64,000 nucleotides of DNA from Dysidea avara (lineage: Eukaryota > Porifera > Demospongiae > Dictyoceratida > Dysideidae): NCBI RefSeq assembly GCF_963678975.1, contig NC_089273.1, forward strand, positions 22,090,356 to 22,154,355, read 5' to 3'. Both the position numbers and the translations under genes were made by a program. Of the stretch, positions 8,078 to 56,020 are shown piece after piece; the stretch's first letter is position 1, and each line of letters starts with the position of its first letter. The notes beneath the pieces were generated by a model that was not told the DNA's origin, ran no database searches, and was given only the letters and a program-made list of their open reading frames with translations.

Positions 8078-8408
8078 TAGTCTGGTGCCGCCTGCCCCTT
8101 CACAACAAGTAAGGGTCTAGTGAAATACAGATACCATACACTGTAGTGGATACTGTGACAAATAGTGAATGTCACTGGAAATTCTTACTGACAGTAACTA
8201 AAATGTGCAGTGACCTTCACTATTTGCCACACTATTCATTACTTTTTTTTACAGTGTATTGATCATTTCAAACAATTCAATTAGAAACATTTCATTGCCA
8301 AAGCAATTTGGGTGTAAACATCTACCACCAAATGAGTGGTAGAAATGGTTTAGTATCTGTATTTCACCAGACCCTTACTTTTGTGAAGGGGCAGGCATCG
8401 CCAGACTA
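8078..8408. mobile_element. 331-bp MITE with ends like the 5.7-kb DUF6589/RecQ element
   Basis: Both ends begin TAGTCTGG and continue with GCCTGCCCCTT and AGTAAGGGTCT, then TGAAATACAGATA, giving inverted repeats of about 55 bp. The outer 43 bp closely match the ends of the element at 50,167-55,831, including the order TAGTCTGG, GCC-GCCC, AGTAAGGGTCTGG. There is no coding content. I see no clear target duplication (flanks GAAACCTGC and AATTGATGT), so the insertion is old or its duplication has eroded. It is probably mobilised by the same transposase (inferred from shared ends). Confidence 0.8.
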
Positions 8409-49870: not shown

Positions 49871-50157
49871 GGCTTCCCCGTCCCCGCTGCCTATGTAGAA
49901 ATGCAACTACCGAAAATCGGTCAGTGAATTGGACAACTGTCAATTGCCCCGAGGGGTGGGGACAAGAAGCAGTGTCAAATCCCACCTGGGGTGTGGGGAC
50001 GCCCGGGGTGGGGCATGAAATTGACAAGTGCACTCTTTGGCCTGCTCCACCGTCCCTGAATTTTCTAAACAATAAAATCGCACTTTCTATTATTTTACTA
50101 GCTACAGGTGTACCAGGTTTATTACTAGTCTCATGCATGAAATATGCGCTTAGTCAT

Positions 50158-50166
50158 CCTTGAGGT
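50158..50166. repeat. Left candidate target-site duplication of the 5.7-kb element
   Basis: CCTTGAGGT abuts the left end; CCTTGAAGT (55,832-55,840) abuts the right end: 8 of 9 match, in direct orientation. Confidence 0.6.
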
Positions 50167-50200
50167 TAGTCTGGCGGCGCCCGCCCCTTTGCATAGAGTA

Positions 50201-50359
50201 AGGGTCTGGAATGCTTAGTATAGTAGAGTTGAACCGGATTACCAAAAACTGGTGCAACCAATCAGAACGCTCCTCGTTTAATCAGCGCATTTTTGTTTAT
50301 GTTACGTCAAAAGAATGAATCAAATGCCCAACTAGGTGATACTAAGCATACCAGACCCT
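50201..50359. repeat. Palindrome-ended module inside the left terminus only
   Basis: AGGGTCTGGAATGCTTAGTA at 50,201 is nearly inverted at 50,339-50,359, enclosing 117 bp. The enclosed part holds a CCAAT box (about 50,256) and TTACGTCA (about 50,302). The right terminus lacks it. It may be a nested insertion or the transposase promoter. Confidence 0.7.
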
Positions 50360-50539
50360 AGTCTCGCGTGGCCAGACCGCTGTTCCGCGCAGGGGCTTAT
50401 CGATTGTAGATTATAAGCGCCCGCGCCGAATAGGGTCTGGTACACTTCCGTTGTGTTCGCACTTTATTTAACAGTAATATGGCGTTGACCAACTCGTGCT
50501 GGTCTTTGCGCCTGTATTTGAGTGATGGACTCGAGGTAG

Positions 50540-53500
50540 ATGGAGTCTTGTGCTCTGTGTTTACAGCCTCAGTGTGACACTGACGGTTCTCGAAGATACC
50601 GCAAGTTGTTATATGGAAAGGCAAACAGTTGTTCAAATGAGCTGGCGATTTTGAATCGACTTATTTTTGCCACATGGCCAGGATTGTCAGTGAATTCTTT
50701 TGAGAAGCTAACTGAAGAAAAGGCATACTTCTGTGCACATTGTCAGAGAAACTTGATAAACTACAACAAAGCTGTTGTGAAAGTTAACCAGCTATCCTCT
50801 GACATTCTTTCTAATTTAAGTGCACCACCACAGACAGAGTTGTCTTGTTCCAGGCCACACACAGGAGAGAAGCGATCTGCTGAGACTGCCCAACTAGGGG
50901 AACCTGATCAAGAAAGAGAAGCTGATGAAAATGAAGCCATAGTAAGCAATTTTTATGTACCAGTATGCTCCTATACTAAATAGTCAAATAGAACACCACA
51001 TCAACAGTATCCACAGGACCCAATACTCCAGAAGTAACTGTGAGTAGCTATGCATGTTTAAAAATCTATCGAAATCATTATTTTGTAGGTGAAGATTAAA
51101 GGCAGAGATGGCCGCGTAAGGAACCACCGTATTACACCAAAGCGTAAACCAATTGTAACATCCCTAAGCAGAAAGTCGTACAATGCTACATCAGAGAAAG
51201 TTGTTGAGTCAGAGGACCTACATGACTGCACAATAAAAGCAATGGCCAATAAAGCTCGTGAAGAGATGAAGGTATTGAATTCTCCAACACATAAATCAAT
51301 GTTAAGGGAGTCTCCAAAACAACTTGAAAAGTTTAGTTGGGAATTATTGGGCTTAGAATTGAAGGAGGCTGTTCCTACACTTTGGATGTTCCTACATGAT
51401 CTACTGCCTAATGCTAAGGAGAAGTTTATCTGTTTCATAGTTTCGATGGTATTGAAGATGCAATGCAAACAACTTGCCAAATTCAAAAGGCTGTGTCAAT
51501 GATGTTATATGCAAATGGAGTACACAAGCAGGTATTAATGTTGTCTGTTTAATGACTCTTCTACTATTTGTAACAGGTTTTTCGATGCTTACAACCATTT
51601 ATGATCACCGTATCAGTGACAGCAACTGCTAACACTGTTAGAAAACTGTCTGATAATCATGATGCAGATGTGATATCTTGGGTGAACAAGCTATTGATGA
51701 CTATTAAGGTTAGACATGTTCATAATCTCAAACTTTTTAAACACACCTTATCGTCTTAACATCTTTAACAGGCTGTAGGACCAGGTGACTTTTAGCACTA
51801 TAATAAAATAAATAAAAAATAATGGTTATTAGCATTGAAATTAAAATACTTTTAGGTATCCGATGACCAGCCACGGGCCAATAGTGACCCATTACTTTGT
51901 TTGGATATGGCAAATGATGGAAACGACAGCGACGAAGATGATGATTGCAGCTGCTGCAGTGACTCTTCATTTGGAGATTTTTTATCTGATGATGACTTTG
52001 ATCTCAACGATGATGATGAATTTGATCTGGATGATGACGATGACTTTGACCTGAATGATTTGCAAGATGCGAATACTGAGAGTGCTATAAATGAGAGTTG
52101 TCATCCAAGACATGATAACGGTGTCACGGCAGCAGAAGTGCACCAAAGTCCTATGTTGATCCAGTCACCAGTTAGCCCTGATGAGATCAGCTTAACTGTT
52201 TCTGCCAACCAGCCAGTGAATGGATATGTCATAGTAGGGGACAACATAGATAAGAATGTACGGCCTTCGTTCCAACGTCATGACCGTACTACACGGTCAT
52301 TGCATTATTTTCATTCATATGCTGTGCAGAATAGAGTCAACACTGCTGAAATATCAGATGATTGTCCTTCTTCTATTGACATATATCCTGATAATTTTTT
52401 GCCTAGCTCGGATGATGTGGAGAAGTTACTCAGTGAATTTGAAACCCTAGTAGCAAGGTGTGTATTCTGCTGCTTAGTGTCTCTTTGTAATACATTGATT
52501 ATTGTAGGATTTTGGTGCAAAGCATGGAGCAATTCAAGGATCAGCAAAGTTTGGTGACATGGCATATCCCCAGTGCATTTTCTAAGGAAATGGCTTGCAA
52601 GTCTGAAGTGGTATGTATATTCATATATAACTGATTCTATAAAATTTGTACAGTAGATAGGTATGTGTCATGGATTTGTTGTATTAGATATATAATATAC
52701 TGTAGGCGACGTAATCTAAATTTTCTGATACTTGTGATATATGTAATATCTATCTGCATCTAGGTACCACTTGGTGTGATTCTGAAGAATGAAGCTCTGC
52801 TGAAGGAAATGACTGAGGTGTTAGATGATTTGAGTAACTATGTTCCAGTGCATGTTGCAACCAAGACAGTGTCTGTAGAGGGAAAAGATTATACAGTTGA
52901 TGACTCAAGATTAATCAAGATCTTGCTTTTTGGTGATCAGTTAACTGCTGCTCGTGCTAGAGGTGCCATTACATTACGGGATGATGACACATCAGCTTTA
53001 CATCGATTGGAGGGTTTTGTTCCTGCTGTTGCTGACTGGCATGCTAGAATGTGTCTATTACAGGTAACAGGTATATTATTTGAGTACAAGTGTTACTAAT
53101 ATACTACAGGCAATGTGGAAGCGACTATACACCAAGAAGTCAAGTAAAGATAAAGGCACGCTGTATCAACTTAGGAACTTAATCAACCGTACTGCCGTTA
53201 AGAGTGATCCTTCTAAGTGCATGAAGGCAACAGAAGATTTTTTGATGGTTGTGTTGCACGGGTACATTGTTGCTGGTGCCACAAAGCTTATGAAAGATGA
53301 GCCATCCAGAGTTTTTACTTGCAATGATGTTGCCAAATGCGTAGTTCGAAATTGGATCAAGATGAATTTATTCTCAAGCAACTCAAAAATACCACCCAAA
53401 GGAACTGACTACAGTTATGCACTGGATGTCATGAGTTTAGGCTTGCTGTGGCATGGCTTCCATGATGCTGTACAAGAGGGTGATGGCGATCACATTATTA

Positions 53501-54030
53501 GATATTGGCGGTTTCTGATGCCTGTATTTAAACATACTGGCCGCCGAAATTATGCTTTGGAAGCATTCAAATTATTATCTCAGACTATGGTGATGTCACC
53601 TAGACAGGTTACTGAGCTAAAGTGGGGGAGAACTATCAATACTGTTGGAAGAATTGGACACAATATAGCTTGCGATCTACATATGGAACATTTAAATGGG
53701 CGTGTGAAGTCTATGATGGAGAACCTGGGTTCAAATTTGAAGCCCCAGTGCATACAAACTGTAGGACGTACACTGGGCATTATCAATAAGCTGTGTGGTC
53801 GTTTTGAAGATGAGGCTGATGCTAGTAAGAATAAGGACTATCACACATTTCCTGCATTTAAAAAAAATTTGGCTATGATAGTATCTCAATAATTGGTGTC
53901 AGATGATGTGTTCAGTGAAAGTAGTCAACAGAATCTCCAATCGTACAAGAGGAGTCCTTTATTCCAAACATTTGATTGGAAAGCAGTGACTGAGTGGCTT
54001 AAAGAGAAAATTATAAACTTAGATCTTTAA
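50540..54030 (+). pseudogene. DUF6589-like putative transposase, seven exons, two lesions
   Basis: Exons by splice sites and open frames: 50540-50941, 51089-51531, 51577-51708, 51856-52457, 52508-52610, 52764-53063, 53110-53892 (or to 54030). About 920-970 residues. Exon 1 has cysteine pairs (CALC, CAHC) suggesting a zinc finger. Exon 4 opens with a D-rich acidic run, then GYVIVGDNIDKNVR and RTTRSLHYFHSYAVQ. Exon 6 has LLFGDQLTAAR and ADWHARM. Exon 7 has CDLHMEHLNG. I recognise this series as DUF6589-like. The D of GDNID, D of GDQLT and E of MEHLN are candidate DDE residues (inferred). Lesions: a one-base frame break in exon 2 between about 51,410 and 51,440, and TAA at 53,890-53,892 with 45 more open codons to 54,030. 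A short intron could explain the first. Role: cutting and joining element ends in the nucleus. Confidence 0.75.
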
Positions 54031-54039
54031 AATTGTATT

Positions 54040-55600
54040 TTAATTATTGTTTTTACACTTAGCACAAACACACAATCGAGCACACAAATCACAACATCTA
54101 CATGCAACAATATCGTGTTTGTCAACATCACTGAAAAGAAAATCTTTGAACAAGAGCGTTCTTCTACAGTGAGATTGATTCTCTCCATAAATCTTAACGG
54201 GCTTTGAAATGTGTGTCATGGCTCCTTTCCCATAGTATAAAATGGATTCTGCCTCACTACTATCTCGTCCAGCTCTACCAGATTCTTGAACCAATTCTTC
54301 CAAGGAATTGGGTGCACCCCAGTTGATGATTCGAGTTATATCTCGACAATCCACCCCCAAGCCAAAAGCAGTAGTGGCAATGATCAACCTTAAGTTGGTC
54401 TTTTCTTTACAGAATTCTTGTAGGGTCTTCTCCTGTATCACTGTTCTAGATGCCGATGTAAAAAGACTGAGCATTCGAAAAGGAAATATACTGGGAGCTG
54501 TTGGTGGTATAGCAATGTTCTGTTTTAGTAGCCTCTTGATTCTTACATGGAAATCACCACACTGCGGCAAACTTTGACAAAACAAAACTGTTTTAGGCAT
54601 GTCAGCCTTCATGCTTATAAGCTCCTGAGCTAGTATTGAACAAAGATCAGCCATTTTAGGCATAGGGACAACAAAGTACTTGATGTTTGGCCTCTCAGGA
54701 GGAAGTCCGACCATTGTAACATTAGTCATTGACAAACGTTCAAAGATACTCTTCACTGTTTCATGTGTAGCAGTGGCTGTGAGAGCAAGAATGTTTACTT
54801 CCTTATTAATCAAGCTCCGGATTGTCCCTATCTCAGCAAACGTCCTCCGAAACTTGTCACCCCTATATTTTGGAAAACAAATGTGTAGTTAAAATTAATC
54901 ACGTCTACCTAAAAGTGTAGGTGGTACACTAAAGAGGTCTGACACCCCTTTCACCCTTGTAATTACTGCTATAGCAAATTATAAATCAAAAACATGTGGT
55001 GGAACTGTATCAGATATCTCGGAAGTTGCCACACCCCGGCTAAGAGCTGGCTTACCATATCTTCACACAGTGAGCCTCATCTACAACAAATCCTACTAAG
55101 TTTTGGGAGTACACAGAAGTCAACAACATTTTCCTGATCTTTGCATTGCCCAGTAAACTTTCTGGACTGATATACACAAGTTGTACTTTGCCTTTCAATA
55201 CATCATCTATGTTTTCGAGTTTTTCTCCAACATACTCCACTGATAGGCCTTTCTGAGATAAAATTCTTTTTTGATCCATCATCAGGGCTGTCAAAGGGCT
55301 TACAACTAAAACAATGCTTTCCATTTGGCACCCTGTAAGTAAAATAAAACCACTGAACCAAATTACTTACTGATTAGTCTTACCTCTCAGTTTATCAAAA
55401 ATCAGCGGAAGAACTGCATATATGAGAGACTTCCCATAACCAGTCGGCAAAACAACCAACGTGTCATTTCCAGACAAGAAGCTTTGTATCGCATCGCGCT
55501 GCTTGGGTTTGATGGTGTCTAAACCTAGATCTTGAATGGAATCTTCAATTGCTGCATCTATAATAGACGAACTTCCACAGACATGGGCAGTCCTTTCCAT
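54040..55600 (-). CDS. RecQ-type DNA helicase carried by the transposon
   Basis: Exons 55600-55384, 55332-55056 and 54862-54040 (217+277+823 nt; 438 residues) with introns of 51 and 193 bp. Superfamily 2 motifs in order: I PTGYGKS, Ia VVSPLTALMMDQ, II DEAHC followed by the RecQ signature WGDKFRRTF (split by intron 2), III ALTATAT, IV TVLFCQS, V TTAFGLGVD, VI QESGRAGRD. It ends in a cysteine cluster (CCDLCARLCVCAKC). HRDC and a winged-helix domain are not evident, so it is a compact RecQ core. The frame is intact with all ATPase residues, unlike its partner gene. It is convergent with the DUF6589 gene and inside shared inverted ends, so it is element cargo rather than a host RecQ. Probable role: unwinding 3'-to-5' during transposition (family knowledge; not shown here). 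Confidence 0.9.
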
Positions 55601-55831
55601 TTCTAAGTCTTAAATAAAATCTATCCGGCGCCTATAGGTGGATGGAAATAATTTACACCCAACATTTTGCTGGGTCGCGAACACAACTGGCCTATTGGAA
55701 GTGTACCAGACCCTATTCGGCGCGGGCGCTTATAATCTACAATCGATAAGCCCCTGCGCGGAACAGCGGTCTGGCCACGCGAGACTAACCAGACCCTTAC
55801 TCTATGCGAATGGGCGGGCGCCGCCAGACTA

Positions 55832-55840
55832 CCTTGAAGT
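55832..55840. repeat. Right candidate target-site duplication
   Basis: CCTTGAAGT; see the left partner at 50,158-50,166. Confidence 0.6.
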
Positions 55841-56020
55841 GTTGTCTAATCCCCTACTAGGGGGTGGGGGACCTGGGGGCCTAGCCGGATTTGACAGCCG
55901 ATTTTGCCCAAGTAGTGGGGAATTTGACACCACGAATTGTCAAATCCCCTGTATTCCCCCACTGGGGGGGGGGGGGGAGGGTGGGTGGGTGGGCATGATA
56001 TTGACAAGTGCATTTAAAAG

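Follow-up and report, generated by a model that had tools for sequence, protein, structure and literature searches.

The 64,000-nucleotide stretch of the Dysidea avara genome analysed here (contig NC_089273.1, positions 22,090,356 to 22,154,355 of the forward strand; hereafter the window) harbours a two-gene transposable element of 5,429 bp at positions 50359-55787, in which a gene for a DUF6589 protein on the + strand meets a gene for a RecQ-family helicase on the - strand. The element is enclosed by terminal inverted repeats (TIRs) of 91 bp that are 100% complementary and the same at either end (50359-50449 and 55697-55787), and is flanked by a target site duplication (TSD) that matches at 9 of 9 positions. 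Two split, convergent genes inside inverted ends had been proposed in an earlier reading of the DNA (the original prediction), and this layout was borne out, with seven exons on the + strand and three on the - strand arranged tail to tail, 9 bp separating the family stop codons. Exon borders were drawn from a six-frame reading combined with splice sites, some of them being read by eye. The features of the element are listed below, the DUF6589 gene being called the transposase gene after its likely function.

50350-50358: left copy of the 9-bp TSD, ACCAGACCC, from the flank sequence
50359-55787: whole element, very likely of the AcademH type, 5,429 bp, with matching end bases in five close copies that have both TIRs
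50359-50449, + strand: left TIR, 91 bp, a near-palindrome beginning TAGTCTCGCGTGGCC, 100% complementary, DNA fold z -3.8
50540-50941, + strand: transposase exon 1, open frame with a GT donor
51089-51531, + strand: transposase exon 2, with a frameshift in the window copy that is absent from six other aligned copies
51577-51708, + strand: transposase exon 3, with frame and splicing judged by eye
51856-52457, + strand: transposase exon 4, an acidic stretch followed by GYVIVGDNID, which holds the first candidate catalytic Asp
52508-52610, + strand: transposase exon 5, splice sites read by eye
52764-53063, + strand: transposase exon 6, second candidate Asp within LLFGDQLT, PF20231 at 43 bits
53110-54030, + strand: transposase exon 7, candidate catalytic Glu within LHMEHLNG, PF20231 at 81 bits
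54040-54862, - strand: helicase exon 3, LTATAT and QESGRAGRD motifs and a Cys-rich C-terminus, from Pfam, TIGR00614 and a public protein model
55056-55332, - strand: helicase exon 2, DEAH and the start of the RecQ loop, from Pfam, the reading frame and the public model
55384-55600, - strand: helicase exon 1, motif I LPTGYGKS, from Pfam, the reading frame and the public model
55697-55787, - strand: right TIR, 91 bp, inverse of the left TIR without a mismatch, folded as the + strand, z -4.5
55788-55796: right copy of the 9-bp TSD, ACCAGACCC, from the flank sequence

The borders of the element were located by searching the D. avara genome (550.8 Mb in 108 contigs) with the right arm of the locus, positions 55697-55840 (144 bases), which returned 46 listed matches, 40 of 1,149 candidates being scored. 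All of the listed matches outside the window stop between query bases 89 and 98, and the outer part of the arm found, among those listed, only the window's own left arm; the element ends are therefore placed at 50359 and 55787, and the inner 91-bp TIR is the part common to the listed copies. The original prediction had bounded the element by complex inverted ends at 50167 and 55831, a placement that was not upheld, since the outer segments belong to a separate miniature inverted-repeat transposable element (MITE), described further below.

Seven further close copies of the element (L039-L045) were fetched. Both TIRs, with the same inner ends, were present in five of these, so that the absence of other copies sharing the ends, one of the original prediction's grounds for refutation, does not apply to the inner ends; four are full-length (5,442-5,449 bp), L045 is broken by another MITE, and L042 and L044 retain a single end each. 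The four full-length copies are approximately 99.5% identical to the window copy over aligned bases, and these five differ from one another by 19-28 substitutions per pair in 5,424-5,444 bases. The window copy has very probably moved recently. In an alignment of seven copies (the window copy included, L042 left out), its exon 2 frameshift and a late in-frame stop at 53890 in exon 7 are both private, the family stop ending at 54030; exon 2 carries a different frameshift in one of the other copies and a stop in another. All three helicase exons of the window copy read open; the word intact in the original prediction applies to the helicase frame alone, the transposase gene beside it being broken. 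Of the six other aligned copies, five are cut or have a lesion in one gene, and one is open in both.

The pairing of the two genes extends far beyond these close copies. A genome profile search with PF20231 gave 111 matches at the level of exons, 102 of 249 candidates being scored, and a helicase was found in the stretch examined at 29 of the best 30 DUF6589 loci, on the opposite strand in 28, so that separate occurrence of the two genes, named in the original prediction as grounds for refutation, was not borne out at these DUF6589 loci. When these 30 loci were combined with the window and L039-L045 into 38 distinct loci, 37 carried both genes, on opposite strands in all cases except L026 (36/37); seven of an initial 44 two-gene loci had been fetched twice and were removed from this count. 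The loci were grouped into 14 families more than 12% apart in the transposase, between which identities ranged from 33 to 72% for the transposase and from 31 to 75% for the helicase. Distances in the two proteins were correlated across the 14 families (Mantel r 0.84), with none of 20,000 permutations reaching as high a value. The association of DUF6589 with the helicase is old and the partners have been co-inherited; because their distances correlate, a recent capture of the helicase, if that was what the original prediction meant by a captured RecQ gene, is unsupported.

Family-wide TSDs were consistent with that of the window element. Both ends were located at 10 of 14 element loci, one end at three and no end at one, and among the 10 two-ended loci, with flanks read by eye, the TSD was 9 bp in eight, 10 bp in one and without a clean repeat in one (L039).

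The assignment of the + strand product to DUF6589, as originally proposed for this split gene, rests on Pfam matches (PF20231) of 43 bits in exon 6 and 81 bits in exon 7 against a cut-off of 27, and DUF6589 was the only family above its cut-off in the transposase stretches scanned, among which exons 3 and 5 were not included as such. Three acidic residues were compared across the distinct loci: the first candidate Asp, in exon 4, is D in 31 of the 32 loci having a residue there, the second, in exon 6, is D in 35 and N in two of 37, and the candidate Glu of exon 7 is E in 38 of 38. These positions form a candidate D-D-E triad kept across loci. With a structure model of a relative, Hermes (a hAT transposase), the P element, RAG1 and Transib filled Foldseek ranks 1-19, with E-values that are not significant. 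The DUF6589 protein is likely a DDE transposase built around an RNase H core, which places this Pfam family of unknown function among the likely DDE transposases, and among those travelling with a RecQ-type helicase. Named DUF6589 relatives came from sponges and from one fungus, Mycena pura, in which the helicase linkage was not seen. No relevant literature on DUF6589 or PF20231 was found in the limited paper collection searched.

The - strand gene matches Pfam DEAD and Helicase_C. Its spliced product of 438 amino acids scores 207 bits against the RecQ model TIGR00614, slightly below the curated cut-off of 219.8, and has its best PDB matches in BLM, bacterial-type RecQ, RecQ1 and WRN chains, in agreement with the RecQ-family assignment of the original prediction. 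RQC, HRDC and RecQ zinc-binding domains gave no match for the spliced helicase in Pfam at E <= 0.01. A public D. avara protein model, likewise of 438 amino acids, is 98% identical over the full length, and the gene model is therefore regarded as sound. In a midpoint-rooted tree of 28 helicase rows, a group of 20 (support 98/96) comprised 14 element helicases of the D. avara genome, three public Dysidea proteins, two from Amphimedon and a single protein recorded as bacterial; the placement of the two host rows is unsure, because their long branches met. Estimates of the ratio of nonsynonymous to synonymous substitution rates (dN/dS) between families left no usable helicase pair and one usable transposase pair (omega 0.51), the rest lying outside the length or dS limits, so that the case for selection on the helicase rests on motif conservation and co-divergence. 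The bacterial-filed protein, P0109, is recorded as the RecQ of an uncultured Candidatus Thioglobus; since it groups with the sponge element helicases in the tree, it may represent a transposon gene of a sponge that was binned with bacteria.

AcademH, a lineage of the Academ superfamily, was reportedly described by Kojima in 2020. Its members are expected to have TIRs, a DDE transposase with an RNase H fold and hosts among animals and fungi. The window element is very likely an AcademH transposon, placed there by description. AcademH elements bear a helicase and have 9- or 10-bp TSDs according to the relevant passages of two sources (PMC10799480, PMC10045372). The window element likewise carries a helicase beside its transposase (RecQ-family, 438 amino acids), has a 9/9 TSD, with 9 or 10 bp in nine of ten other two-ended elements, possesses identical 91-bp TIRs and comes from an animal host, a sponge, as those passages would lead one to expect. 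No difference from AcademH, as described there, has been established. On the combination of helicase, 9-bp TSD, TIRs and animal host, the AcademH candidacy raised in the original prediction thus became the likely class, and the element would add a member to this already described type and not a new type.

Another Academ lineage, AcademX, has an XPG-like nuclease. AcademX elements are given 3- or 4-bp TSDs alongside a nuclease in PMC10045372, whose author suggests that the TSD difference between the two lineages relates to the helicase and the nuclease. The window element differs in its 9-bp TSD, and by coordinate comparison none of the four XPG_I matches in the genome (from five candidates) lies less than 1 Mb from any listed DUF6589 match. 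Kolobok elements target TTAA. Within that group KolobokH, a DDE transposon lineage encoding a RecQ helicase, is reported only from fungi in the portion of PMC9587614 that treats it. As far as that account goes, KolobokH resembles the window element in coupling a DDE-type transposase with a RecQ-family helicase, and differs in belonging to a separate transposase superfamily, the window element having DUF6589 and a 9-bp TSD; moreover, the helicase lies downstream in KolobokH and on the opposite strand in the window element. Helitrons are not known to have TIRs or TSDs. They are portrayed in PMC12730594 as eukaryotic transposons with their own helicase, an HUH nuclease and single-stranded transposition. 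The window element shares the carriage of a helicase, yet differs in its long TIRs, 9-bp TSD and DDE-like protein, and no HUH or Rep nuclease match was obtained with Pfam among the window-element stretches scanned.

Taken together, we consider it highly probable that this locus is a recently moved AcademH-type transposon in which the DUF6589 protein would cut and join DNA with a 9-bp stagger, assisted by the co-inherited helicase. The transposase would bind the TAGTCTCGCGTGGCCAGACC ends, excise the element from its donor site and join it to the target across the 9-bp stagger, after which gap filling by the host would generate the 9-bp duplication. The RecQ-family helicase would remodel DNA during transposition, and would most likely do so where the palindromic ends or the strand-transfer joint have to be opened. 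As its own transposase gene is broken, the window copy would need the transposase of another copy. Movement by cut-and-paste is somewhat more likely than movement by copying. With near-identical copies that have exact ends and TSDs in hand, the role of a helicase in a TIR transposon becomes testable.

The TIRs themselves are an odd feature of the element, whether tied to the helicase or not. Each folds upon itself, pairing CCAGACC against GGTCTGG with an additional inner stem, and the folds were better than those of shuffled sequences in all eight TIRs tested (z -2.9 to -4.5), which represent six elements, both window TIRs and both TIRs of one MITE being included. In 11 hand-picked TIR classes, pairing was better between native than between swapped arms, 151 of 200,000 permutations being as good. 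When arms were swapped within eight alignable classes, the native combination was not clearly better (30,252 of 200,000), and in an alignment of nine TIRs both sides had changed at one of 19 pairs, so that covariation was minimal. The palindrome is real, and could work as a DNA hairpin or, given the unclear swap test and the minimal covariation, merely as two inverted protein-binding sites.

Such folding, the pairing of native arms and the existence of short elements down to 72 bp that appear palindromic by eye would all suit a helicase-dependent transposon that moves by a single-stranded or replicative (copy-out or peel) route, its TIR hairpins being opened by the RecQ helicase. We regard this as unlikely, since the arm swap within alignable classes was not clearly worse, covariation was found at only 1 of 19 pairs, the short elements are explicable by ordinary deletion between short direct repeats of the palindromic TIR, and regular TIRs with 9-bp TSDs suit staggered DDE integration. 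Somewhat more doubtful is a specific form in which the helicase would peel single-stranded hairpin ends, the transposase would read the folded CCAGACC/GGTCTGG stem and folding would spawn mini-elements of 72-160 bp.

Short elements of 72-161 bp made up 11 of 32 MITEs sampled, most of which had been picked for two ends lying close together. L056, L067 and L070 on contig C1, of 73, 72 and 92 bp, share the element's terminal 20 bp, carry 9-bp duplications (imperfect by one mismatch in one case) and approximate a lone TIR closed on itself. Snap-back synthesis was considered as an origin of the mini-elements and is not claimed, as deletion between direct repeats of the palindromic TIR yields the same products.

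The outer ends at 50167 and 55831, and with them the 8-of-9 repeat, are those of a different and abundant MITE, into which the two-gene element has jumped. The remains of this host MITE, whose termini are TAGTCTGGCGG ends, are as follows.

50158-50166: left copy of the host MITE's TSD, CCTTGAGGT, matching the right copy at 8 of 9 positions
50167-50358: left part of the host MITE, with the TAGTCTGGCGGCG end, from genome matches and uninterrupted loci
55797-55831: right part of the host MITE, from the rejoined junction in 7/7 related loci
55832-55840: right copy of the host MITE's TSD, CCTTGAAGT, from the flank sequence

A genome search with positions 50167-50358 gave 40 scored matches (the window and 39 others) out of 488 candidates. 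At all seven related MITE loci fetched, the insertion point was unbroken and carried a single copy of ACCAGACCC, exactly in six and with one mismatch in the seventh. In three MITE loci fetched at greater length, the insertion-point sequence was continuous in both TIRs (6/6, with 0-2 mismatches), and with one mismatch it is also unbroken in the left MITE arm of the window; the two-gene copy was inserted inside a TIR of the host MITE, which itself has TAGTCT-type ends and 9-bp duplications. Rejoined, the host MITE in the window measures 227 bp. Of the three loci fetched at greater length, L092 and L094 are of 509 bp with 9-bp TSDs, and L093 has 877 bp between the ends found, with flanks matching at 8 of 9 positions.

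A single transposon spanning 50167-55831, its ends complex and its 8-of-9 TSD degraded, is accordingly very improbable on the showing of the listed copies. Its outer arms are indeed 90% complementary over 51 nucleotides and its flanks do match at 8 of 9 positions, yet the listed right-arm matches outside the window end at bases 89-98 of the 144-base query, a perfect 9-bp TSD adjoins the inner ends, and the outer segment is a MITE with copies of its own, uninterrupted in 7/7 loci. The direct repeat noted in the original prediction is thus present and is the host MITE's, not that of the two-gene element; both the wrong ends and the wrong repeat arose because a nested insertion had been merged into one element, an illustration of how such insertions may pass for the complex ends of one transposon. 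That two host genes, domesticated or fortuitously placed, lie between inverted repeats by chance is barely conceivable, for despite several introns in both genes, dispersed full-length copies hold the pair between the same ends with their own TSDs (except L039), on opposite strands in 36 of 37 distinct two-gene loci.

Other repeats were seen in the window. Positions 8078-8408 have inverted ends resembling the host MITE (TAGTCTGGTGCCGCC... and TAGTCTGGCGATGCC...), with mismatched 9-base flanks. A G-rich direct repeat of 45 bases, 73% identical, lies on either side of the host MITE (49988-50032 and 55968-56012); on re-examination only a 27-base stretch of it was recovered.

Across the genome, the 20-bp element end occurred 1,337 + 1,296 times at <=1 mismatch, the reversed control giving 0. 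Among the 32 sampled MITEs, 28 scored a 9-bp TSD (two with one mismatch), two scored 10 bp and two scored none; L071, one of those scored at 10 bp, differs at the outer base only and so has an equally perfect 9-bp repeat. The TSDs of 39 elements displayed a weak target preference for T at position 2 (18/39), A at position 8 (17/39) and C at position 9 (26/39), but position 1 was G in no more than 12, which left the symmetry below expectation.

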